A stretch of 64,000 bases of DNA, from positions 187,189-251,188 of the forward strand of contig JAGVWE010000004.1 in the NCBI GenBank assembly GCA_018304425.1. Reading direction: 5' to 3'. Source of the stretch: Candidatus Iainarchaeum sp. GTDB taxonomy: Archaea > Iainarchaeota > Iainarchaeia > Iainarchaeales > UBA10219. The notes below the pieces were generated by a model. The model saw only the letters and a program-made list of their open reading frames with translations. It ran no database searches and was not told where the DNA came from. Position numbers and translations under genes: made by a program. This document shows positions 7,936-25,629 of this stretch, one piece after another (the first letter of the stretch is position 1; the number at the start of each line of letters is the position of its first letter).

Positions 7936-7980
7936 ATGCACGCGCCAAGAAGGGATTTACTTTGGCACCCGTTCCACTGA
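7936..7980 (+). CDS. trp leader ORF 1 (MHAPRRDLLWHPFH), putative Trp-sensing peptide
   Basis: This 14-codon ORF is the first one downstream of the trp TATA box and probably starts at or near the 5' end of the mRNA. It contains a single Trp codon, TGG 7963-7965, preceded by Arg-Arg-Asp-Leu-Leu (AGA AGG GAT TTA CTT), and stops at 7978-7980. A +1 slip at CTT-TGG leads into a frame that is open until the second copy of the motif at 8048. The same codon string with a His codon heads the his leader. Function as a regulatory uORF is inferred from these coincidences. There is no Shine-Dalgarno sequence, consistent with leaderless initiation. Confidence 0.6.
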   Translation: MHAPRRDLLWHPFH

Positions 7981-8077
7981 TTTAACCAGCGTGCGCACTG
8001 GCAAGGCCAGTTTTTCCCCCGGCTTTTTCAAAAAGGCTGCTAACTTTAGAAGGAATCTACTTTGGCTCCGGCCTTGA
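7964..8077 (+). other. trp leader segment 2, open frame entered by +1 shift and ending RRNLLWLRP
   Basis: Read from GGC 7964, this frame is open for 33 codons to CTT 8060-8062. It then meets the second Trp codon, TGG 8063-8065, and stops at TGA 8075-8077. The end repeats the leader motif as AGA AGG AAT CTA CTT TGG. The two TGG codons are exactly 100 nt apart, which gives the one-base phase difference between frames. A second +1 slip at this TGG yields GGC TCC GGC in the trpD frame. A GTG at 7991 could alternatively start this frame on its own. Confidence 0.5.
7986..8015 (+). terminator. Candidate trp attenuator: competing hairpins and U5 tract
   Basis: actggc (7997-8002) and gccagt (8006-8011) form a 6-bp stem with a 3-nt loop followed by ttttt, a terminator-like element. 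Upstream ccag (7986-7989) can instead pair with ctgg (7998-8001), which excludes the terminator stem. A ribosome that finishes leader ORF 1 at 7980 would cover ccag and favour the terminator. A ribosome stalled at TGG 7963, or one translating through the region, would prevent it. The structure was read by eye and not energy-computed. Confidence 0.5.
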
Positions 8078-9119
8078 ATCGCCTTTAAAGTCAGCCCTCA
8101 GCCAAGCCATTGACGGAAAGCTCTCCCCCACCGCCCTCGGAGAAGGCCTCCGCCAAATCCTCTCCGGCCAGGCCACGGACGCGCAAACCGCTTGCCTGCT
8201 CACCTGCCTCCGCCTGCAAGGCCTCGAAGCCCCCCAGCTGGTGGCAGCGGTCTTGGCCCTCCAGGAATTCATGCACGCCATCCACCCCAACGGCGACCAG
8301 CCCCTCTTGGACATCGTGGGCACGGGCGGCGACCAAGCCGGCACCTTCAACGTCTCCACGGCCTCGATGTTCGCCGCCGCAGGCGCGGGTTGCCGGGTCG
8401 CGAAACACGGCAACCGGGGTTTCACTTCCAAGACGGGCGCAGCCGACGTCCTCGAAAAACTCGGCGTCAACATCGGGCTCTCGCCAGCCGCCAGCGCGCG
8501 GTTATTGGAAGAAACCGGAGCCTGTTTCCTGTTTGCGCCCACTTTCCACCCCGCCCTGGCTTATGTAGCAGGCGTGCGGCGGGAGCTGGGCTTCCGCACG
8601 CTCTTCAACCTCCTGGGGCCCCTTGCCAACCCAGCCAACGCTTCCACGCGGCTCGTTGGCGCCAATTCCCCGGAGAACGCGCGCGTGCTCGCGAAAGCCC
8701 TGCAACGCCTGGGCCTCGCACACTGCCTCGTCGTCCACGGCTCCCAGGGCACGGCCTCCCGCGCTCCCGGCCTCGACGAGCTCTCCACGCTCGGCAAAAA
8801 CCTCTGCATCGAAGTCAAGGGCAAGGCCTCCAAGGAATTCTTCTTGCGGCCCGCGGAGTTCGGCTTCAAGCCCGCTGCACTCGCCGACCTGCAAGTCCAC
8901 TCCGTCGACGAAAGCGCGGCCGCCGTTCTGTCCGTCCTCCGCGGCGAAGCCGGCGCCAAGCGCGACGTCGTCCTCTTCAACGCCGGCGCGGCCATCCACG
9001 TCAACGGCCTCGCGGGTTCCATCGCCGAAGGCATGGCCCTTGCCCGCGGCTCCATTGACTCCGGCCAGGCCCTCGAAAAACTCGAACAACTGAAGGTGAA
9101 ATCGAATGCACTTGCTTGA
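8064..9119 (+). CDS. trpD: Anthranilate phosphoribosyltransferase (start supplied by frameshift or non-canonical)
   Basis: TrpD transfers the phosphoribosyl of PRPP to anthranilate. The glycine-rich PRPP loop is LLDIVGTGGDQAGTFNVST, followed by KHGNRGFTSKTGAADVLEKLG and the RELGFRTLFNLLGPLANP segment. The track start (GTG 8241) cuts off a clear N-terminal helical domain (SALSQAIDGKLSPT...RLQG), which continues in frame upstream. From the in-frame stop at 7983 to 8241 there is no ATG, GTG or TTG. The frame is entered exactly by a +1 shift at TGG 8063, so 8064 is given as the first base of the frame, not as a start codon. The alternative is TTG 8062 with a good ribosome-binding site (agaagga) plus one missing base around 8084-8089. 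Confidence 0.85.
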   Translation, partial: GSGLESPLKSALSQAIDGKLSPTALGEGLRQILSGQATDAQTACLLTCLRLQGLEAPQLVAAVLALQEFMHAIHPNGDQPLLDIVGTGGDQAGTFNVSTASMFAAAGAGCRVAKHGNRGFTSKTGAADVLEKLGVNIGLSPAASARLLEETGACFLFAPTFHPALAYVAGVRRELGFRTLFNLLGPLANPANASTRLVGANSPENARVLAKALQRLGLAHCLVVHGSQGTASRAPGLDELSTLGKNLCIEVKGKASKEFFLRPAEFGFKPAALADLQVHSVDESAAAVLSVLRGEAGAKRDVVLFNAGAAIHVNGLAGSIAEGMALARGSIDSGQALEKLEQLKVKSNALA

Positions 9120-14085: not shown

Positions 14086-14087
14086 AT
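14079..14087 (+). promoter_or_regulatory. TATA box upstream of the aromatic leader peptide
   Basis: tttataaat overlaps the trpG stop codon. A start site about 26 nt downstream (around 14109) would place the strong GGAGGTGAT in the 5' UTR of the leader peptide. A second TATA-like cttaaatag at 14107-14115 would give a nearly leaderless transcript instead. Confidence 0.55.
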
Positions 14088-14139
14088 CGGCAAACCAGGG
14101 GAAACGCTTAAATAGTTCCTGTACTGGAGGTGATATAGT

Positions 14140-14235
14140 ATGGAGCAATCGTTTGTCTGCCTGAACGCTGTTGCAGTTCCTTCTTTAGTCGGCAGACTGT
14201 TTGCTTCCTTGGTTGGATTCTATTATTTTTGGTAA
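14140..14235 (+). CDS. Aromatic operon leader peptide ending Phe-Tyr-Tyr-Phe-Trp
   Basis: This is a 31-codon ORF too short for the track. It is preceded by GGAGGTGAT (14126-14134), a near-perfect anti-16S match with 5-nt spacing, so it should be efficiently translated. It ends in TTC TAT TAT TTT TGG TAA: five consecutive aromatic codons immediately before the stop, covering Phe, Tyr and Trp, the end products fed by the operon that follows. A ribosome starved for any aromatic aminoacyl-tRNA would stall at the very end and uncover or mask the downstream hairpins. A regulatory leader peptide is the simplest reading. Confidence 0.8.
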   Translation: MEQSFVCLNAVAVPSLVGRLFASLVGFYYFW

Positions 14236-14237
14236 CG

Positions 14238-14330
14238 GGCTCTCCCTAAGCCTCGCCTAGGCTGCTTTCTCGGAGAGCCTTTCCTCAATCCCAGCCTCGG
14301 CTACCCTCTTCTTGGAAGCGGATTTTTTTT
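14238..14330 (+). promoter_or_regulatory. Attenuator-like region with alternative hairpins and T8 tract
   Basis: ggctctcc (14238-14245) pairs perfectly with ggagagcc (14272-14279), enclosing agcct/aggct (14249-14253/14259-14263). The same aggct can pair with agcct at 14276-14280 or 14293-14297, and ggagag (14272-14277) can pair with ctcttc (14306-14311), so several mutually exclusive folds exist. Eight T residues at 14323-14330 lie just before the pheA ribosome-binding site; U-tracts alone can terminate archaeal RNA polymerase. A stalled ribosome on FYYFW would cover 14238-14245. Confidence 0.6.
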
Positions 14331-14341
14331 GGTGATAAGAC

Positions 14342-15400
14342 ATGCAATTGGAAGTTGAACGCAGGAAAATCGACGCAATCGACGAAAAAATCGCCGCGCT
14401 CGTTTCAGAGCGCCTCCAGGCAGCCAAGCGAATCGGCGTCCTCAAAGGCGGGAACGCCGTCCTCGTGCCCGGACGCGAGCACGCCATCCTGGACGCGCTT
14501 GCTTCTAGCCATCCCACCCTTCCCCGCAAGGCCTTCGAAGGCGTCTTCCACGAGCTCTTCGCCGCCTCCCGCGCCGCCCAGAAGCCCTTGCAGGTCGCGG
14601 TGCTGGGGCCGGCAACCAGTTACTCGCACCAGGCCGCGGCCAAGCGCTTCGGCTCCCTCCCGGAATTCGCGTTCCAGTCCTCGATTCCCGAGGTCTTCCT
14701 GGCCGTCGAAAAGGGCCTGGCCGACTACGGCGTTGTTCCCATCGAGAATTCCTCGGACGGCGCGGTCAACGCGACCTTCAACATGTTCCTGAAGTCCCAT
14801 GCAGGCATCGTGGCCGAGATAAACCTGGACATCGACCATTGCCTGGCCGGCAAGGTGCCGCTCTCCGCGGTCAAGAAGGTGTTCTCGCACCCCCAGGCCC
14901 TGGCCCAGTGCGCGCACTGGCTGGCCAGCCGGTTGCCGCACGCCGAACTCCTGGAAGCGGCCTCGACTTCCGATGCCGCGGAGAAGGCCCTGGTCTACCA
15001 CAGCAGCGCGGCGGTTTGCTCGGAGTTCGCGGCCCGGCACGCGGGCCTCGACGTCCTGGCTTCTTCCATCGCCGACGAAGCCCTGAACCGCACCCGGTTT
15101 TTAGTCATCGGCAATATTGAGGCCCGGCCCTTGCCCGGTGGCAGGGACAAGACCAGCCTCATCTTCAGTGTCCCGCACAAGCCCGGCGCGCTCGTCGAAG
15201 CCTTGAAGGTCTTCCAGGCGCATGGCCTCAACATCACCAAGATTTGGAGCCGGCCCACCTTGATCCAGAAGGACGCCTACGAGTTCTTCGTGGACTTCCA
15301 GGGGTTCGTCGGCGACAAAAAAGTGGAGCAGGCACTCGACGAGCTCCGCGTACCCTGTGGTTTCGTCAAGGTGCTTGGCTCGTTCCCGGAGGAGGACTGA
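14342..15400 (+). CDS. pheA: Chorismate mutase / prephenate dehydratase (P-protein)
   Basis: This 352-residue protein has three domains: an AroQ chorismate mutase (about 1-85, with RRKIDAIDEKIAALVSERL), prephenate dehydratase (about 90-270, with VPIENSSDGAVNATFN and the catalytic NRTRFLVIG), and a C-terminal ACT domain. It turns chorismate into phenylpyruvate. In the ACT domain the Phe-binding ESRP motif reads WSRP (NITKIWSRPT), so feedback inhibition may be altered. ATG 14342 follows ggtgat just after the T8 tract. Confidence 0.94.
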   Translation: MQLEVERRKIDAIDEKIAALVSERLQAAKRIGVLKGGNAVLVPGREHAILDALASSHPTLPRKAFEGVFHELFAASRAAQKPLQVAVLGPATSYSHQAAAKRFGSLPEFAFQSSIPEVFLAVEKGLADYGVVPIENSSDGAVNATFNMFLKSHAGIVAEINLDIDHCLAGKVPLSAVKKVFSHPQALAQCAHWLASRLPHAELLEAASTSDAAEKALVYHSSAAVCSEFAARHAGLDVLASSIADEALNRTRFLVIGNIEARPLPGGRDKTSLIFSVPHKPGALVEALKVFQAHGLNITKIWSRPTLIQKDAYEFFVDFQGFVGDKKVEQALDELRVPCGFVKVLGSFPEED

Positions 15401-15401
15401 C

Positions 15402-16415
15402 ATGATCATCAAGCTCAAGGCAAGCGCGTCCAAGGAAGCCATCCAGCAGGTCATCGACTTCGTGCGAGCCCATGGCCTCGACGTGGATGCGTCGCTTGGA
15501 AAGGAAGTGACCCTGGTGGGCGTCATCGGCGACACGCGGCAGCTCCCCAAGCAGGCCCTGGAGTTCCTGCCGGCCGTGGAAAAACTCATCCCCATCCTCA
15601 AGGACTACAAGCTGGCCTCGCGGGAATTCCACCCGGAAAACACCGTGGTCAAGGTCAACGGCCTGAAAATCGGCGGTGAACAGTTAGTTATTATGGCCGG
15701 GCCCTGCGCCATCGAAGGCGAGGAACAACTCCTGGAAGCCGCGCACGCCGTGAAAGAAGCCGGGGCCCACGTCCTGCGTGCCTCGGCCTTCAAGCCTAGG
15801 ACGTCGCCCTACGACTTCCAGGGCATGGGTGAGGAGGGCCTCAAGCTCCTGCGCAAGGCCAAGCAAGCCACCGGGCTCGTCACGGAGACCGAGGTCCTGG
15901 ACGTGCGGGATGTAGAGCTCGTGGCCAAGTACGTGGACATCCTGCGCGTGGGCGCGCGCAACATGCAGAACTTCGACTTGCTCCGGGAAGTCGGCAAAAT
16001 CGACAAGCCCGTCATCCTCAAGAACGGCATCTCCTCGACCCTCAAGGAGTTCCTGTTGGCGGCCGAGTACATCATGGCGGAAGGCAACCGGAACGTCATC
16101 CTGTGTTCGAGGGGCATCCGGACCTTTGAGACCCTGACGCGGTTCACCTTGGACGTGAACACGATTCCCCTCTTGCACAAGGAAAGCCATTTGCCGGTCA
16201 TCGTGGACCCAAGCCATGCCGCGGGCATCCGGGAACTCGTGCAGCCGATGTCCCGTGCCGCGGTCGCGGCCGGCGCGGACGGCCTGCTCGTCGAAGTGCA
16301 TAGCCACCCGGAAAAGGCGTTGTGCGATGGCAAGCAAGCCCTGCTCCCCTCCGATTTCAGGCAATTGATGTCGGACCTGCGGAAAATTGCGCCCATCGTG
16401 GGGAGAACAATGTAG
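15402..16415 (+). CDS. aroF: 3-deoxy-7-phosphoheptulonate (DAHP) synthase, type I-beta
   Basis: An N-terminal ferredoxin-like regulatory domain (about 1-70, MIIKLKASASKEA) precedes the barrel, as in Thermotoga-type DAHP synthases. Core motifs are MAGPCAIEGEEQ, FKPRTSPYDFQG, VGARNMQNFDLL, LKNGISSTLKEF and VDPSHAAG. It condenses PEP and erythrose 4-phosphate in the first shikimate step. I chose ATG 15402; the track start lies inside pheA. Its presence shows that the classical DAHP route is used rather than the archaeal DKFP route. Confidence 0.93.
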   Translation: MIIKLKASASKEAIQQVIDFVRAHGLDVDASLGKEVTLVGVIGDTRQLPKQALEFLPAVEKLIPILKDYKLASREFHPENTVVKVNGLKIGGEQLVIMAGPCAIEGEEQLLEAAHAVKEAGAHVLRASAFKPRTSPYDFQGMGEEGLKLLRKAKQATGLVTETEVLDVRDVELVAKYVDILRVGARNMQNFDLLREVGKIDKPVILKNGISSTLKEFLLAAEYIMAEGNRNVILCSRGIRTFETLTRFTLDVNTIPLLHKESHLPVIVDPSHAAGIRELVQPMSRAAVAAGADGLLVEVHSHPEKALCDGKQALLPSDFRQLMSDLRKIAPIVGRTM

Positions 16416-16424
16416 GCGGAACCC

Positions 16425-17690
16425 ATGGACCTGAAAATCAACCCCATCCAGGAAGTCAACGCCGTGCTCGAGGCGGTTCCCTCCAAGGCGGAGACTCTAC
16501 GCGCCCTTTTCTGCGCGTCCCTAGCCGACGGCGTCTCGCGCATCCAAAAGCCTTTAATCGCCGAAGACCAGTTTCTCTGCCTCAAGGCCCTGGAAGCCCT
16601 GGGCGTGCATTCCACGGTCAAGGCCTCCGCGCTGCGCGTGCAGGGCCTGGGCGGCCGCTTCCAGGTTCCCGAGGACAAGCTCTTCTTGGGCAACTCCGGT
16701 TTCGGCCTCCGCTGCCTGACCGCTCTTTCCTGCCTCGTCTCCGAGGGAAGGGTTACCCTCGACGGCTCCAAGGAAATGCGCCGCCGTCCGGTGGCCGAGT
16801 TGCTCGCGGCCTTGAACGCGCAGGGAGTAAAGGCCGCGAGCCTGAAGGCCAACGGTTGTCCACCCGTGCAGGTTGCAGCCGGCCGGCCAGCGGGTGGCAT
16901 CCTTTCCGTTGACTGCAGCCGCAGCAGCCAGTTCCTCTCCGGCCTCCTCTTGCTGGCGCCCTTCGCCGGGCAGGACACGGAACTCGTGCCTTCCGCGAAG
17001 TTCAGTTCCCGGCCCTTCGCCGACCTCACCATCGACTTCCTGCAAAAATTCGGCGTCGCCTGTACAGCCACCGGAAAAAACCTCGTGGTTCCCGCCGGCC
17101 AGCGCTTCAAGAAAACAACACTGCGCGTGGGTGGGGACTTCTCCGGCATGAGCGCGTTGCTGGCCGCGCCCATTCTCACCGGCGGAAAAATCGTCGTCAA
17201 GGGCCTGTGCAAGGATTCCCTGCAGCCTGACCGCTTTATCCTGGACGCGCTCCGCCGGATGGGGGCACAGGTGCATATGACTACAGAAAGCGTCCGCGTG
17301 GAAGCCAACGGCACCCCTCACCCCCTGGAAGCCGACTTCAACGCCTGCCCCGACCTAGTGCCAACCGTGGCCGTCCTGGCCGCCTTTGCTTCCGGTAAAA
17401 GCCGGTTGACGGGCATTGCCCACCTCCAGTTCAAGGAATCCAACCGCCTCAACGCGGTGGCCCGCGAGCTCAAGCGCATGGGCATCACGGCCCGGAAAGG
17501 CAGCGACTCGCTTGAAATCATCGGAGGCAGGCCCCGCGGCGCGACCATCCAAACCTACAACGACCACCGCATCGCCATGGCCTTCGCCCTCGCCGGCCTG
17601 AAAGCCAAGGGCATGAAAATCCTGGGCGCCCACTGCGTCGAAAAAAGCTTTCCCCGCTTCTTCGAGGAACTGGCAAGGGTGGGAAGATGA
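16425..17690 (+). CDS. aroA: 3-phosphoshikimate 1-carboxyvinyltransferase (EPSP synthase)
   Basis: This 421-residue two-domain enzyme joins shikimate-3-phosphate and PEP. Conserved stretches are DGSKEMRRRPVAELLAALN, SSQFLSGLLL, FKESNRLNAVARELKRMG and YNDHRIAMAFALAG. The usual PEP-site GNAGTA(M)RPL is replaced by GNSGFGLRCL, retaining the Arg. It starts 9 nt after the DAHP synthase gene and overlaps aroKB by 4 nt. Confidence 0.92.
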   Translation: MDLKINPIQEVNAVLEAVPSKAETLRALFCASLADGVSRIQKPLIAEDQFLCLKALEALGVHSTVKASALRVQGLGGRFQVPEDKLFLGNSGFGLRCLTALSCLVSEGRVTLDGSKEMRRRPVAELLAALNAQGVKAASLKANGCPPVQVAAGRPAGGILSVDCSRSSQFLSGLLLLAPFAGQDTELVPSAKFSSRPFADLTIDFLQKFGVACTATGKNLVVPAGQRFKKTTLRVGGDFSGMSALLAAPILTGGKIVVKGLCKDSLQPDRFILDALRRMGAQVHMTTESVRVEANGTPHPLEADFNACPDLVPTVAVLAAFASGKSRLTGIAHLQFKESNRLNAVARELKRMGITARKGSDSLEIIGGRPRGATIQTYNDHRIAMAFALAGLKAKGMKILGAHCVEKSFPRFFEELARVGR

Positions 17691-19306
17691 ACCTCGTGTT
17701 GATTGGTTTCCGGGGAACGGGCAAGACCGCCGTCGGCAGGGAAGTCGCGAAGGCGCTCGGTTTTTCCTTTGTCGACACCGACTGCTTGGTTGCGGAGCGT
17801 GCGGGCCGCCTTATCCCGGAAATCTTCGACAAGTTCGGCGAGCCGGGCTTCCGCGAACTCGAAGCCCAGGCCATCGCCTCCCTGGCGGGCGCGGACCACT
17901 CGGTCATTGCCTGTGGCGGCGGCGCGGTCCTGAACCCGGCCAATGTCGCGGCCCTCAAGCGCAACGGCCTCCTGGTGCTCTTGACCGCGGACGCCGATGA
18001 AATCAGCCACCGCATCCAGGGCAGCCAGCGGCCGCGGCTGACTTCCCTTGATGGGCTTGCGGAAGTCAAGCACCTGCTCCGCGAACGCGCGCCCCAATAC
18101 CAGCAGGCAGCCGACCACGTTCTCGACACCACCCGGCTCTCGGTGCCGGAAGCAGTCCAAGGTGTACTTGCCCTAGCCAGGGCTCCAAACCCCGGCAAAA
18201 GCCCTTCCACTGTTTCCGTGCCTGTCCTCGTCGGCACGCGGGACGCCCACGAAATCGTCATTGGCAACAGCGCCTTGGACCGGCTTTCCGCCCTCATTTC
18301 CCAAGCTCAGCCATCGGCCGTGGCCATAGTCTCCGGCACCGGCGTCCCGAAAGCCCCTGTCGCCTGCGTGAAAAAAACCCTGGAAGCCGCGGGCGTGCGC
18401 TGCGTCCTCGCTTCCTTGGATGACCGCGAGGCCAGCAAGCGCCTCTCAACCGTGGAAAAAATTTCGTCCACCCTGCTCGAGCAAGGCCTGGACCGGCACT
18501 CGCTGTTGATAGGCGTGGGCGGCGGCCTCACCTGCGACCTTGCGGGCTTCGTCGCCGCGACCTTCATGCGCGGCATCCCCCACGCCTTGATTCCCACCAC
18601 CCTGCTGGCCATGGTGGACGCGGCCATCGGGGGAAAGACGGGAGTCAACCTCTCCCAGGCCAAGAACGCAATCGGGTGCTTCAAACAGCCCCTGGCGGTT
18701 CTCATCCGGCCCGCGTTCCTGGACACGCTGCCCCCCAGGGAACTCCTCAACGGCTTCGCGGAAGCCGTCAAGCACGGCGTCATCGCCGACCCGGAACTGC
18801 TGGCCTTCATGGACCGGCACGCGGAAAAACTCCTGGCCCTGGACGAGTCTTTACTCGCGGAATTCATTGCCCGCAACGCCCGCATCAAGGCCGGCATCGT
18901 TTCCCTGGACCCCTCCGAGCAGGGCCCACGCAAGGCCCTCAACTTCGGCCACACCCTCGGCCACGCCCTGGAAGCGGAGGCCGGCTTCAAGGGCTTGAGC
19001 CACGGCGAGGCGGTTGCCATCGGGATGGTCTTCGAGGCCCGGCTCTCCCAGCGCCTGGGCGGCCTATCCGCCGTGGAAGCGGCCTCCCTGGAGCACCTGC
19101 TGGAAAAGCTCGGCCTGTCCACCCGCCTCCCGGCCTTGGACTCCGGGAAACTCCTGGCCCGCATGGCCTTCGACAAGAAGAACGAGGCAGGAACCATCCG
19201 CTTCGCGTTGCCGCAAGCCATCGGAAGGATGATGGACCCGGACGGCTCCTACTCGGTGCCCGTGCCCGTGCACGTCCTCCGCTCCCTCTTGGAGGCCCGG
19301 CCATGA
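17687..19306 (+). CDS. aroKB: Shikimate kinase / 3-dehydroquinate synthase fusion
   Basis: Residues about 1-165 are a bacterial-type P-loop shikimate kinase (IGFRGTGKTAVGREVA, DTDCLVAERAG, ACGGGAVLN). Residues about 180-539 are AroB (IGVGGGLTCDLAGFVAATFMRG, TTLLAMVDAAIGGKTG, NFGHTLGHALEAE, HGEAVAIGM). Most archaea use a GHMP-type shikimate kinase, so this gene looks acquired from bacteria; the same fusion is known in Thermotoga. It carries out steps 2 and 5 of the shikimate pathway. Confidence 0.94.
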   Translation: MNLVLIGFRGTGKTAVGREVAKALGFSFVDTDCLVAERAGRLIPEIFDKFGEPGFRELEAQAIASLAGADHSVIACGGGAVLNPANVAALKRNGLLVLLTADADEISHRIQGSQRPRLTSLDGLAEVKHLLRERAPQYQQAADHVLDTTRLSVPEAVQGVLALARAPNPGKSPSTVSVPVLVGTRDAHEIVIGNSALDRLSALISQAQPSAVAIVSGTGVPKAPVACVKKTLEAAGVRCVLASLDDREASKRLSTVEKISSTLLEQGLDRHSLLIGVGGGLTCDLAGFVAATFMRGIPHALIPTTLLAMVDAAIGGKTGVNLSQAKNAIGCFKQPLAVLIRPAFLDTLPPRELLNGFAEAVKHGVIADPELLAFMDRHAEKLLALDESLLAEFIARNARIKAGIVSLDPSEQGPRKALNFGHTLGHALEAEAGFKGLSHGEAVAIGMVFEARLSQRLGGLSAVEAASLEHLLEKLGLSTRLPALDSGKLLARMAFDKKNEAGTIRFALPQAIGRMMDPDGSYSVPVPVHVLRSLLEARP

Positions 19307-20772
19307 AAGTCGTTGTCTCCATTGGTGCCCCGTCAACGCGCGCGGCCCTTCGCCTGATTTCCAGAGCCAACCGGCTCGCGGACTTGATTGAGCTTCGCCT
19401 CGACCTGCTCCCCGCGGAATCCCTCGAAGCGCTCATTCGCGCCTGCCGGAAGCCCGTGCTCGCCACGCTCCGCTCGAAGCGGGAGGGAGGGGAATTCAAT
19501 GGCCGGCCCGCCGCGGTGGAAAGGCGATTGCACCAGGCGCTAAAACGTGGAGTGGAATTCCTCGACGTGGAATTCGCGCTCCCAGCCAAGACGCGGAAGC
19601 GTCTCATGCGGGCGGCAGCCGCGAAGAAAAAAAAGGTCATCCTCTCCAGGCATTTCCCGGCTCGCACGCTTCCCTTGGCCGAACTCATGGCCTTGCTTAA
19701 GCGGATGGCGCGCGTCAAGGGAGTCGAGCACCTCAAGATAGTCACGCGCGCTGATTCCGTCGAAGACAATGGCGTCCTCCTCTCCCTTCACCTCGCCGCC
19801 CACCGGCAAGGCGTTCCCCTCATTGCCCACGCCATGGGCCCGCTGGGAAGGGTTTCCCGGCACCTCGGTCCCTTGATTGGAGCGGACCTCGCCTTCGCCC
19901 GCCTGGAAGGCCAAACGCCCGCGGCGGACGGCCAACCCACTGTAACGGAACTCCGACGGGGAAAGCGTTCCGCCGTGTGCGCCGTCGTCGGCAAACCCAT
20001 CGGGCACAGCCTCAGCCCCGCCTTGCACAACGCGGGCTTCCACGCCCTTGGCATGGACGCGGTCTTCCTCGCGCTCGAAGCAGAGTGCTTGGCGGAAGCC
20101 GTTGGCCTCGCGCGGAAAGGAAACTTCCTGGGTTTGAGCGTTACCCTGCCCTTCAAGGCGGACGCGCTCAACCTCGCCGACCAGGCCGATGCGCTTGCCG
20201 GGAAAATCGGGGCCGCGAACACGCTGGTTTCCCGCGGCGGGAAACTGGTGGCCTTCAACACGGACTGCCCGGCAGCCGTCGAAGCACTTGAAACCGTTGC
20301 ACCGGTGCGCGGCAAAAAAGCCTTGATACTCGGCGCGGGCGGCATGGCGAAAGCCACGGCCATCGGCCTGCGCGTCCACGGCTGTGAAGTCGCTCTTGCC
20401 GCACGCCACCCGGAGAAAGCGCGCAGCTTCTGCCGCGCCCACGGCCTAGCTTTGCGCTCGCTTCGCTCGCTGCACGCGCTTACCTCGCTTGACGTGGATT
20501 TCCTCGTGAACGCCACGCCCCTCGGCATGGAGGGTGCGCCTTTCCCACTGCCCATCCCGGCCCGTTTGCTCCGTGGGCAAACCGTTCTCGACTGCGTCTA
20601 CAACCCCGTGCACACGCCCCTCCTGCGCGCGGCCGAAGCCAGGGGCTGCCGGACGGTTTCCGGCCTTGAGGTTTTTGTCCGGCAAGGCGTCCGGCAATTC
20701 CAGTTATTCACCGGCCGAAAGGCGCCCGTCAAAGCCATGCGGGCCGCGGTGGTGCGGAGGCTGAGAGCATGA
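19303..20772 (+). CDS. aroDE: 3-dehydroquinate dehydratase (type I) / shikimate dehydrogenase fusion
   Basis: The start is ATG 19303 (MKVVVSIGAPST), overlapping aroKB by 4 nt. The 698-residue track ORF begins far inside aroKB. Residues about 1-215 are type I DHQ dehydratase (ELRLDLLP, a Schiff-base Lys region near LKIVTRAD, and VILSRHF). Residues about 220-489 are AroE (VVGKPIGHSLSPALHNAGF, NVTLPFK-like SVTLPFKADAL, NTDCPAAVEAL, ILGAGGMAKA, VNATPLGM). It performs steps 3 and 4 of the pathway. The D-E fusion resembles plant and chlamydial enzymes. Confidence 0.94.
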   Translation: MKVVVSIGAPSTRAALRLISRANRLADLIELRLDLLPAESLEALIRACRKPVLATLRSKREGGEFNGRPAAVERRLHQALKRGVEFLDVEFALPAKTRKRLMRAAAAKKKKVILSRHFPARTLPLAELMALLKRMARVKGVEHLKIVTRADSVEDNGVLLSLHLAAHRQGVPLIAHAMGPLGRVSRHLGPLIGADLAFARLEGQTPAADGQPTVTELRRGKRSAVCAVVGKPIGHSLSPALHNAGFHALGMDAVFLALEAECLAEAVGLARKGNFLGLSVTLPFKADALNLADQADALAGKIGAANTLVSRGGKLVAFNTDCPAAVEALETVAPVRGKKALILGAGGMAKATAIGLRVHGCEVALAARHPEKARSFCRAHGLALRSLRSLHALTSLDVDFLVNATPLGMEGAPFPLPIPARLLRGQTVLDCVYNPVHTPLLRAAEARGCRTVSGLEVFVRQGVRQFQLFTGRKAPVKAMRAAVVRRLRA

Positions 20773-21839
20773 CGGGAAACACGTTCGGCACCCTTTTCAG
20801 AGTCACCTCGTTCGGCGAGAGCCACGGCAAGGCCATTGGCTGCATCATCGACGGCTGCCCCTCCAACCTGGCCCTGTCCGAGGCCGACCTCCAAAAGGAG
20901 CTCGACCGGCGCCGGCCCGGCCAGAGCGGCGTCACTACCGCGCGCAAGGAAAGCGACCGCGTCGAAATCCTTTCAGGGGTCTTCGAAGGAAAAACCCTGG
21001 GCACGCCGATTGCTTTGCTCATCCGCAACGAGGACGCGCGCTCCAAGGACTACGACGCGCTCAAGGAAGTCTTCCGGCCAGGCCACGCGGACTACGCGTA
21101 CCTGCAGAAATTCGGTTTGGTCGACCACCGGGGAGGCGGTCGCAGTTCGGGCCGCGAAACGGCTGCCCGCGTAGCCGCAGGCGCCGTGGCCAAGAAACTC
21201 CTTGCCCTTCAGGGCATCAGGGTTATCGCTTTCACGCGTGCCGTCGCGGGCATCGAAGCCCAGGCAACCGACCTCGCGGCCATCGAGGCCAACCCCGTGC
21301 GCTGTCCCGATCCCGCAGCAGCCAAGCGAATGGAAGAAGCCATCCTTGCAGCCAAGGCAGCCGGGGACTCCCTGGGGGGAATTGTGGAAATCCAGGTGAA
21401 GGGTTGTCCTGCCGGCCTCGGCGAACCGGTCTTTGGCAAGCTCGACGCCGAACTCGCGAAGGCCCTGATGAGCCTCCCGGCCGTCAAGGGCGTTGAAGTG
21501 GGAGCCGGTTTTGCTGCCACGCGCCTCAAGGGCAGCGAGAACAACGATTCCTACACCGCCTCGGAGGACGACCAACCCGTGCCCGCCACCAACCGGGCCG
21601 GCGGCGTCCTCGGCGGCATCAGCTCGGGCGAGGAAATCATTGCACGCATAGCCGTCAAACCGCCTTCCTCGATTGCCCTTCCCCAGAAGACCGTGGACCA
21701 CGCCGGCCGCGAAACGGAGATTGCAATCCAGGGCAGGCACGACCCCTGCCTCTGTCCCCGCGTCGTTCCCGTCGCGGAAGCCATGGCCGCGTTGGTGCTC
21801 GTGGATGCCTTGATGATGCAGAAGGCGAGACAATGGTGA
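20769..21839 (+). CDS. aroC: Chorismate synthase
   Basis: This 356-residue FMN-dependent enzyme is recognised by FGESHGKAIGCIIDGCPSNL at the N-terminus, RRPGQSGVTTARKESDRVEILSGV-type core residues, DHRGGGRSSGRETAARVAAGA and RHDPCLCPRVVPVAEAM. It makes chorismate, the branch point feeding trpE/G and pheA/tyrA. It overlaps both neighbours (4 nt with aroDE, 7 nt with tyrA). Confidence 0.95.
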   Translation: MTGNTFGTLFRVTSFGESHGKAIGCIIDGCPSNLALSEADLQKELDRRRPGQSGVTTARKESDRVEILSGVFEGKTLGTPIALLIRNEDARSKDYDALKEVFRPGHADYAYLQKFGLVDHRGGGRSSGRETAARVAAGAVAKKLLALQGIRVIAFTRAVAGIEAQATDLAAIEANPVRCPDPAAAKRMEEAILAAKAAGDSLGGIVEIQVKGCPAGLGEPVFGKLDAELAKALMSLPAVKGVEVGAGFAATRLKGSENNDSYTASEDDQPVPATNRAGGVLGGISSGEEIIARIAVKPPSSIALPQKTVDHAGRETEIAIQGRHDPCLCPRVVPVAEAMAALVLVDALMMQKARQW

Positions 21840-22576
21840 AGGCAAAGTCCGGACCGGTCGTCGGCATCGTGGGCGGCAAGGGGAAGATGGGCCGCCTGCT
21901 GGCCAAGCTGTTCAAGCGCAGGGGCCTCGAAGTCAGCGTGAGCGATTTGCATACCCGTCTGACAAACGCACGGCTCGTCGAGGCCTGTGACATCGTGTTC
22001 TTTTCCCTGCCCTTCAAGCAAGCCTTGCGCGTCATCCCCCGCATCGCCCCGCTCGCCAACCCCGGCGCCTTGTTGTGCGACCTCACCTCGGTGCAGGAAA
22101 AAACCGTGTCCCTGCTCGCCCGCCACGCCCCGCGCGGGGTCGGCGTTTCAGGCGTGCACCCCATGTTCGGGCCCGATGTCCCCTCCATGAAAGGCCAGCC
22201 GGTTTTCATCTGCCCCGTGCGCGCCAACCCCTGGCTGGGTTTCCTCAAACGCATCTTCAAGGGAGCCGGGCTGCGCCTGCACGTGTTCTCCCCCCGCGAA
22301 CACGACCGACTGACCGCGGTGCTGCAGGCAGGGGTTTACTTGAACGCCCTGGCTTTTGCCGGTCGGCTGGCGGACAACGGCATTTCCCTGCGACAAGCCC
22401 GCCGCCTGGCCACCCCCAATGGCCAGCAACTGCTGGACTTGATGGAGAGCGTGCTGGGCCTGGATGCCTGGCTGGTGCAAAGCATCCTCTTCGGCAACCG
22501 GTTCGTGGAAACGCCTTGGCGGTCGGAACGCGCCTTCGCCAGGGAATTCAAGCGCTTGAAGGAGGCCCTTGCATGA
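21833..22576 (+). CDS. tyrA: Prephenate dehydrogenase
   Basis: This 247-residue NAD(P)-binding protein opens VGIVGGKGKMGRLLAKLFKRRG (GxGxxG). It has CDIVFFSLPFKQA, LLCDLTSVQ and the prephenate-site HPMFGPDVPSMKGQPV. The C-terminal helical dimerisation domain is short. It commits prephenate to tyrosine synthesis. Its coupling with pheA in one operon under the FYYFW leader fits joint Phe/Tyr control. Confidence 0.9.
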   Translation: MVKAKSGPVVGIVGGKGKMGRLLAKLFKRRGLEVSVSDLHTRLTNARLVEACDIVFFSLPFKQALRVIPRIAPLANPGALLCDLTSVQEKTVSLLARHAPRGVGVSGVHPMFGPDVPSMKGQPVFICPVRANPWLGFLKRIFKGAGLRLHVFSPREHDRLTAVLQAGVYLNALAFAGRLADNGISLRQARRLATPNGQQLLDLMESVLGLDAWLVQSILFGNRFVETPWRSERAFAREFKRLKEALA

Positions 22577-23799
22577 CCCAATCGGTCTTCCAGCGCGCCG
22601 GCAAGAAGCTCACCGTGAAAGGCACGAGCGACCGCGTCAACCGCGTCAAGATTTCCCCCATCAAGGAGATGGGTTTGCTTGCGGAAAGCATGCAGGGCGT
22701 GGTCTCGCTGGGCCAGGGAACGCCGTCCTTCCGAACCCCTGCCCACATCGGGGCCTTCGTCGCGCAGAAAATCGCGGAAGGCGCCGTCGACAAGTACATC
22801 ATGGGACCGGGTCTGCCGGACCTGCGCCACGCGATAGCGGACAAGCTCGGCCGCGTCAACCGCATCGACGCAAACCCCGACACCGAGCTCATCGTCACGG
22901 TCGGAGCCAACCAGGCCCTGTGCATGGCCATGCTGGCCCTCGTCAACGAGGGCGAGGAAGTGCTGATGACTTCCCCCAATTACTCGCCGCACCTCGAACA
23001 GGCAGGGGTTGCCGGTGGGAACGTGAAATTCGTGCCCCTGGTCGAGGAAGAGGGCTGGCGCCTGGATGTCGAGGCCTTCGCGCAAGCGATTTCCAGGCAC
23101 ACGAAGCTGGTCGTCCTCAACACGCCCCTCAACCCCACGGGCTCGGTGCTGCCGGAAAGGGACTTGCGTGCCCTCGCCGAGGTCGTCCTCCAGACAGATG
23201 CCTTCGTGCTCACCGATGAAACGTACGAGGACTTCGTCTTCGGAAAAGAAAGGCACTTCAGCCTGGCCTCCATCCCAGCGATGCGGCCCCGCACCCTCTC
23301 GGTGTTCAGCTTCTCGAAGTCCTACGCCATGACCGGCTGGCGCTGTGGTTACGTGCACGCCGAAGAGGGGCTCATCAACCAGCTCCTAAAACTGCACGAT
23401 GCCCTGTGCATCTGTGCTCCCCTCACCGCGCAATACGCCGCCCTCGCTGCCCTCACCGGGCCTCAGGACTGCGTCAGCCACTTCCGCGGCGAAATCGCCC
23501 AGCGTGCCCGTCTCGTCGAAAAACGCATGGCCGAGCTGCCACGCTTTTCCTCCCAGCCCCTGGCCGGGGCCTACTACGCGTTCCCCAGGGTCGCGGGCCT
23601 AAGGGACTCGGTGGGCTACTGTCTGGAGCTTCTCCACGGGGCCAAGGTGGTCACGGTGCCAGGCTCGGCCTTCGGGCCCACGGGAGAAGGGCACATCCGG
23701 TTGAGCTACTGCATGGAAGAAAATGTGATTGACCAAGCCTTCGACCGCATCCAGCAATTCGAGAAAAAACAGGGACACGGGCAGCCATTGCACGGCTAA
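22573..23799 (+). CDS. PLP aminotransferase, class I/II (aromatic or aspartate type)
   Basis: I chose ATG 22573 (MTQSVFQRAG), overlapping tyrA by 4 nt. The 574-residue track ORF begins inside tyrA. The 408-residue fold-type I enzyme has PLP residues in VVLNTPLNPTGSVL, DETYEDFVFG and SFSKSYAMTGWRCGY (Schiff-base Lys), with a C-terminal GHIRLSYCM Arg. As the last gene of the aromatic operon it probably transaminates phenylpyruvate and hydroxyphenylpyruvate, or prephenate. Aspartate specificity cannot be excluded. Confidence 0.88.
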   Translation: MTQSVFQRAGKKLTVKGTSDRVNRVKISPIKEMGLLAESMQGVVSLGQGTPSFRTPAHIGAFVAQKIAEGAVDKYIMGPGLPDLRHAIADKLGRVNRIDANPDTELIVTVGANQALCMAMLALVNEGEEVLMTSPNYSPHLEQAGVAGGNVKFVPLVEEEGWRLDVEAFAQAISRHTKLVVLNTPLNPTGSVLPERDLRALAEVVLQTDAFVLTDETYEDFVFGKERHFSLASIPAMRPRTLSVFSFSKSYAMTGWRCGYVHAEEGLINQLLKLHDALCICAPLTAQYAALAALTGPQDCVSHFRGEIAQRARLVEKRMAELPRFSSQPLAGAYYAFPRVAGLRDSVGYCLELLHGAKVVTVPGSAFGPTGEGHIRLSYCMEENVIDQAFDRIQQFEKKQGHGQPLHG

Positions 23800-25507: not shown

Positions 25508-25629
25508 AGCCTCCGGCGAGATTTGAACTCGCGACCTGCTGATGGCTTGCGCAACGCACTACCACCCCTTGCGGGGAAGTAGTTACCGCGTTACAAGTCA
25601 GCTGCTCTACCAGGCTGAGCCACGGAGGC
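25508..25629 (-). tRNA. tRNA-Thr (TGT) with 48-nt intron
   Basis: The acceptor is GCCTCCG/CGGAGGC, the D-stem GCTC/GAGC, the anticodon stem GCTGA/TCAGC with loop CTTGTA plus A38, and the T-arm GCGAG-TTCAAAT-CTCGC. The intron occupies 25544-25591 at 37/38 and contains a CCCCGCAAGGGG hairpin. Confidence 0.92.

Follow-up and report, generated by a model that had tools for sequence, protein, structure and literature searches.

In the 64 kb stretch of Candidatus Iainarchaeum sp. DNA analysed here (the window), an eight-gene operon of aromatic amino-acid biosynthesis is preceded by a 31-codon open reading frame (ORF) on the forward strand (14140..14235, from ATG 14140 to TAA 14235). This ORF is likely a regulatory leader peptide gene that gauges charged Phe-, Tyr- and Trp-tRNA and thereby controls the operon. 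Leader-peptide attenuation is a textbook control of bacteria. The occurrence of such leaders in two archaeal lineages suggests that archaea also sense amino acids through ribosome stalling, a form of control hitherto known from bacteria.

The leader ORF encodes MEQSFVCLNAVAVPSLVGRLFASLVGFYYFW and closes with the codons TTC TAT TAT TTT TGG TAA, placing the control codons Phe-Tyr-Tyr-Phe-Trp at 14218..14232 (+), as the preliminary description of this DNA had stated. The start of pheA lies 106 nucleotides (nt) downstream. Within the 64 kb, this is the sole ORF ending in five aromatic codons and, among ORFs of 10-50 codons on both strands with three start codons allowed, the sole one with at least five aromatics in its last eight codons. 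In 20,000 dinucleotide shuffles of 14086-14341, an ORF ending in five aromatic codons arose once and an ORF with at least five aromatics in eight codons 113 times. A scan of the window for single-residue clusters gave no further candidate of this leader type.

We compared the leader with the corresponding loci of related genomes. The window genome is the sole member of its family, and its phylum is represented by 87 genomes in the set used; promoters and a family-B DNA polymerase mark it as archaeal. A short aromatic-rich ORF stands directly before the aromatic operon in 17 further genomes of the order (18 with the window), compared with a background, counted over 1.03 Mb of strand in the same loci, of 8 such ORFs or some 0.002 per 250 nt. 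The preliminary description had staked its reading on a clustering of aromatic codons in orthologous leaders, and this clustering was found. The leaders of G015 and G041 read MNSAVLIQESVFLAKVKSAISFYFYFWFFK and MQAIAIREKTVFSICDSLAQYFCVYFFW, and the C-termini include YSFSAYSYFYFW (G027), KYFAYWYFYFFE (G007), FAFYFYFFFFK (G067), AFWYFYFFE (G056), GSYFAYWYFA/V (G060/G061), SNWYFFYFE (G039), TIFFSYYFYG (G012), IPYFFFYW (G017) and AWFFNFFFFY (G014); SFYFYFWFFK, directly before the stop, is one of the endings seen in the order. Leaders of less extreme aromatic content are present in G030, G052, G006, G070 and G028. Aromatic codons running right up to the stop, as earlier described for the window, are not the rule, since in some relatives Lys, Glu, Val, Ala, Gly or Arg follows the aromatic run.

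Phe, Tyr and Trp are all represented in many leaders, which matches an operon of the common pathway; moreover, several genomes carry aro and trp genes in one long cluster behind a single leader, so that the mixture of codons fits the genes behind it. Depending on the genome, the leader is followed by pheA, transaldolase, ADH synthase, DAHP synthase, EPSP synthase or an aspartate kinase-like gene, and it therefore tracks the start of the operon rather than a single gene. The identity of pheA between leader-bearing genomes is 33-52% where compared, and the arrangement is nonetheless kept. A genome-wide scan for three Phe/Tyr codons, Trp and a stop was uninformative, as many genomes gave about as many matches as the reversed-pattern control.

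Additionally, we found aromatic-rich leaders in the Archaeoglobales, in 27 of the 28 loci with ADH synthase and at 22-98 nt upstream of that gene. Examples are the leader MPAKPMQTYAYFFDFRFSWSYRFSY and the C-terminus FGYWFSF; in Archaeoglobaceae archaeon SKYB32 (L045), MASVTLNKSCDFYLFYFSC precedes aroB'-aroD-tyrA/pheA. Locus L186, with the leader MHGVAKTRVFGFYFRFSFGYWFSF, probably belongs to Archaeoglobus fulgidus, which would place this species among the carriers. In other Halobacteriota, none of 40 regions inspected before ADH synthase-like genes held a leader, a partial negative because some of these genes may be the aldolase paralogue. At L181-L197, a conserved GGAGGTG followed by A/T/G-TG lies just past the leader stop and before ADH synthase; in many species it leads a second short ORF, out of frame, that overlaps the ADH synthase start.

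The start regions of 44 leaders with upstream sequence were then compared. The best-matching TATA-like box has its centre 23-29 nt upstream of the ATG in 40 of them, and 25-26 nt upstream in 29; a match of at least 7/8 at 23-31 nt was found in 33 of the 44, against a base-shuffle mean of 1.6 and maximum of 6. Most relatives have the box at 25-28 nt and no Shine-Dalgarno (SD) motif. The predicted leader promoter of the window is the TATA box CTTAAATA (14107..14114, +), centred 29 nt before the ATG, together with a GAAA resembling a B recognition element (14101-14104, +). The spacing seen before the leader ATGs is the distance that separates the TATA box from the transcription start in archaea. 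Leader mRNAs therefore probably begin at the ATG, and judging from these promoter sequences they are probably leaderless, with transcription starting at or just before it.

The SD that had been called near-perfect, GGAGGTGAT, is present at 14126..14134 (+), but an SD-like motif within the last 20 nt upstream occurs in only 3 of the 44 leaders, the window among them, so that it is not a conserved part of the leader and is possibly incidental. With a transcript starting at or just before the ATG, the window SD would lie mostly upstream of the transcript. SD-led translation of the leader, considered as an alternative mode of initiation, is disfavoured by this low count and by a TATA spacing that predicts leaderless mRNA.

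The leaders also contain conserved structure. In the Archaeoglobales, base pairing joins the start region of the leader to the aromatic codons: CCAGCUAAACC pairs with GGUUUAGCUGG, and AUAGCCAAAGC with GCUUUGGCUAU. In this stem 95.5% of the cells are paired and four pairs show compensatory changes, whereas slid controls reach 20-53%, a comparison that somewhat favours the arms as they were picked by eye from eight sequences. Resampling of synonymous codons, which is independent of that choice, gave combined z values of -3.9 for the Archaeoglobales and -2.4 for the order of the window, which overstate significance because related sequences are not independent. Over the 18 members of this order, the 60 nt that directly follow the leader stop fold more stably than their shuffles (Stouffer z -5.8), and the stretch after them does not (+1.1). 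The consensus fold of the Archaeoglobales contains only a weak seven-pair structure after the stop (-2.1 kcal/mol), because insertions and deletions shift the ORF stem, which was resolved by aligning the arms codon by codon.

In the window, folding predicts a stem inside the ORF, formed by GTCTGCC (14155..14161, +) and GGCAGAC (14191..14197, +), and two hairpins after the stop. Hairpin A pairs GGCTCTCC (14238..14245, +) with GGAGAGCC (14272..14279, +), and the alternative hairpin B pairs GCCTAGGCTG (14255..14264, +) with CAGCCTCGGC (14292..14301, +). Both are mutually exclusive and of near-equal energies, -31.2 (A) and -29.7 (B). Fold A is predicted to be favoured if no ribosome covers 14239 or beyond, while the prediction changes to fold B once the RNA is masked to 14239 or further, as it would be with a ribosome at Phe30, Trp31 or the stop. 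In the model, this switch matches the logic of bacterial attenuation.

The preferred reading is thus that of a sensor and an output, which we weigh separately. As the sensor, the progress of a ribosome on the leaderless ORF very likely reads charged aromatic tRNA, and the position of this ribosome would decide the expression of the operon. Judging from the TATA spacing, transcription would begin at or within a few nt of the ATG and the ribosome would initiate on a nearly leaderless 5' end. When aromatic amino acids are ample, the ribosome would pass the aromatic codons and leave at the stop, the post-stop hairpin would form and the operon would be off, most likely through an RNA polymerase that, having no trailing ribosome, terminates before pheA. 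When they are scarce, the ribosome would stall on the last aromatic codons and lie over the 5' arm of the post-stop hairpin; the alternative hairpin of the window, as predicted by folding could then form and transcription continue into the operon. Translation, stalling and termination are what we infer from the codons, the promoter spacing and the folds. As the output, we lean towards premature transcription termination over the opening of the SD of the first gene.

Termination in archaea needs U-rich RNA and the factor FttA, whose terminator comprises the last 36 nt of RNA, U-rich at -30 to -36, and ribosome coupling is proposed to exclude FttA (PMC11616081; PMC8116511). Since the aromatic codons are U-rich, a potential FttA site would lie beneath a stalled ribosome, and one might speculate that hiding this site is part of the control. 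A run of eight U at 14323..14330 (+), 43 nt beyond hairpin A, is a candidate archaeal termination or FttA site. However, it does not hold up as a general terminator, because it is not conserved: U-runs of at least five after the leader are absent in G041, G060, G061 and G017, and a hairpin with a U-tract is clear in G070 only. A terminator of the bacterial style at this run was for this reason rejected as the general design. Of the preliminary description, the core (a leader peptide with aromatic control codons) is supported, and three details, namely the SD, the U-run and the aromatic codons up to the stop, call for revision.

Several observations weigh against this reading. The switch between hairpins A and B is a prediction from one sequence and one energy model, and in relatives the alternation is weak in the f8 group, with four sequences only. 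A ribosome stalled at any of the first three aromatic codons would, with the footprint assumed, fall short of hairpin A. The fold of the whole leader in the window is unremarkable (z -0.79), as is that of 14230-14335 (z 0.10). Across the relatives, no conserved hairpin and U-tract terminator was found before the first gene. The SD of the window would not be expected if initiation were strictly leaderless. Finally, no clear equivalent of the leader was found in G013, a complete genome with a transaldolase-pheA-trp super-operon, or in G002, G023, G020 and G072.

The output could instead be translational with the same sensor, a stalled ribosome refolding the RNA such that the SD of the first gene opens, as in erm leaders. 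In fold A, the pheA SD, GGTGAT (14331..14336, +; GGUGAU in the RNA), pairs with bases around 14288-14294, and fold B is predicted to break this pairing. Archaeoglobales have a conserved GGAGGUG and A/G/U-UG just past the leader stop, which in L202-L205 and L209 is the start of ADH synthase itself. However, the post-stop hairpin misses the SD of the first gene in many relatives, and, unless there is polarity, a control that reaches only the first gene would have little effect on an eight-gene operon, so that we regard a translational output as rather unlikely.

A second possibility is that the nascent peptide arrests the ribosome, the signal being the peptide or a ribosome-bound free amino acid, as in TnaC, and not a shortage of charged tRNA. 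The aromatic run sits at the extreme C-terminus, a frequent place of arrest motifs, and the Archaeoglobales leaders have a recurrent serine- and aromatic-rich C-terminus. Nevertheless, the C-termini vary freely (FYYFW, SFYFYFWFFK, YWYFYFFE, IFFSYYFYG) and keep aromatic content alone; no conserved TnaC-like arrest sequence was found among them. Counting of codons therefore fits better than a peptide motif, and arrest by the peptide appears improbable.

That the ORF encodes a small protein with a function of its own, in the membrane or in signalling, and is co-expressed with the operon would agree with its hydrophobic C-terminus and the conserved gene neighbourhood, but is very improbable given a length varying from 24 to 44 aa in the order, a drifting N-terminal half, and the difference between the G060 and G061 leaders, with three synonymous changes and one amino-acid change in the last 10 codons and mostly amino-acid changes elsewhere. 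Least credible is a chance ORF in a U-rich upstream region, with a DNA-binding regulator such as TrpY or Tar in control: transcription factors are the known archaeal control of these genes (PMC6737238), but the shuffle and background rates are low, the ORF is absent in the 40 controls and it recurs in two lineages with the same start spacing.

The operon behind the leader covers the shikimate, phenylalanine and tyrosine pathway. Its first gene, pheA (14342..15400, +), encodes chorismate mutase-prephenate dehydratase and is followed by aroF, aroA, aroKB, aroDE, aroC, tyrA and an aminotransferase gene (15402..23799, +), the products being DAHP synthase, EPSP synthase, shikimate kinase-DHQ synthase, DHQ dehydratase-shikimate dehydrogenase, chorismate synthase, prephenate dehydrogenase and the aminotransferase; the gene identities given previously for this region were borne out. 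The trp genes lie directly upstream of the leader on the same strand, trpD and trpC being identified by profile and trpB, A, E and G by sequence and mutual similarity across loci. trpD has no in-frame ATG, GTG or TTG from the upstream stop to 8241 (8030-8241, +), and its N-terminus is clearly encoded upstream of 8241; a non-standard start or recoding is possible. A 122-nt tRNA gene at 25508-25629 (-), matched by Rfam, was missed by ARAGORN and apparently bears an intron. In G013 (L110, about 8720-8840, +), the region before the super-operon holds the interleaved inverted repeats TGTTGAATAC/GTATTCAACA and GCCCCGC/GCGGGGC and a seven-codon TTG ORF, LDFFFCF.

A second class of leader elements was observed at other operons. 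In the window, the trp and his operons are preceded by AGAAGGRATYTACTT and a codon for the amino acid of the operon, in short ORFs that we denote RR(D/N)LL-X. These are MHAPRRDLLWHPFH (7936-7980, +) and MRRNLLHSRR (40936-40904, -), with further copies at 8048-8062 (+) and 40579-40565 (-), each locus of the window genome having two copies. The element also occurs in L283, L111, L116, L119, L311-L315, L319, L320, L324, L326 and L327. The specifier X, which can be Trp, His, Pro or Cys, agrees with the tRNA gene and the enzyme gene that come next (trpE, hisS/his operon, proB) or, for Cys, with cysS: across the order, TGG stands before tRNA-Trp and trpE, CAY before tRNA-His and hisS, and CCA before two tRNA-Pro genes and proB, while TGC/TGT is found in the window genome beside a neighbouring divergent cysS (hisS, proB and cysS being recognised from sequence rather than by profile). 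The two Arg codons are invariant and the specifier varies synonymously, although the search pattern favours constant Arg codons. The element has an internal AGAAGG, SD-like and nine bases before the single specifier codon, at which it might keep the ribosome. In the window, the presumed trpD start is overlapped by the second copy of AGAAGG. Between the two trp elements, a hairpin ACTGGC-AAG-GCCAGT followed by a T-run (about 7996-8016, +) resembles an intrinsic terminator.

As a tentative and rather doubtful generalisation, the aromatic leaders may represent an archaeal form of attenuation, with leaderless ORFs whose U-rich aromatic codons double as an FttA loading site hidden by the stalled ribosome, and would be one of two leader classes in the order, the other being RR(D/N)LL-X. 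If the regulatory reading holds, attenuation would extend to a second domain, where it would occur in two lineages, the cultured Archaeoglobus fulgidus probably being among the carriers; the archaeal form would use leaderless initiation and lack a conserved intrinsic terminator. The system would then offer a natural, testable read-out of archaeal transcription-translation coupling and FttA termination. It may explain the control of aromatic genes in archaea lacking Tar or TrpY, and would imply that some short archaeal ORFs missed by annotation are regulatory.

No archaeal leader-peptide attenuator was found in the literature searched, which covers few subscription journals, so that prior work may exist; this agrees with the earlier statement that no archaeal case is established. 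The uORF4u paper states in general terms that attenuation by upstream ORFs occurs in archaea and gives no example in the text searched (PMC10219788). The bacterial trp, pheA and his attenuators of Enterobacteria and Actinobacteria share with the archaeal leaders a short pre-operon ORF in which codons for the regulated amino acids abound, structured RNA past the control codons, an ORF-internal hairpin and, in the window, hairpins predicted to be mutually exclusive. The archaeal leaders differ in their TATA promoter, apparently leaderless start and mixture of three aromatics, in lacking a conserved hairpin and U-tract terminator, and, in the Archaeoglobales, in a start region that pairs with the control codons themselves. 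Of the classical features, the clustered pathway codons in a short ORF before the operon are present, their match to the pathway being kept in relatives, and an intrinsic terminator and an SD for leader translation are not conserved.

With TnaC and the Rho-gated leaders (E. coli tna), the common point is that a ribosome at the end of the leader could shield the place where a termination factor enters; in archaea, FttA has a preference for U-rich RNA some 30-36 nt upstream of the 3' end (PMC11616081), and aromatic codons are U-rich. However, TnaC stalls at the stop codon with abundant free Trp, whereas the likely signal of the archaeal leader is a shortage of charged tRNA. Tar (TK0271) and TrpY act on the same target genes but are DNA-binding proteins, and the Tar paper makes no mention of leader peptides or attenuation (PMC6737238). 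No Rfam model, the T-box included, matched at 14126-14341, the Rfam matches in the window being tRNAs only. T-box riboswitches likewise sense tRNA charging before amino-acid genes, but here the sensor would be an ORF.
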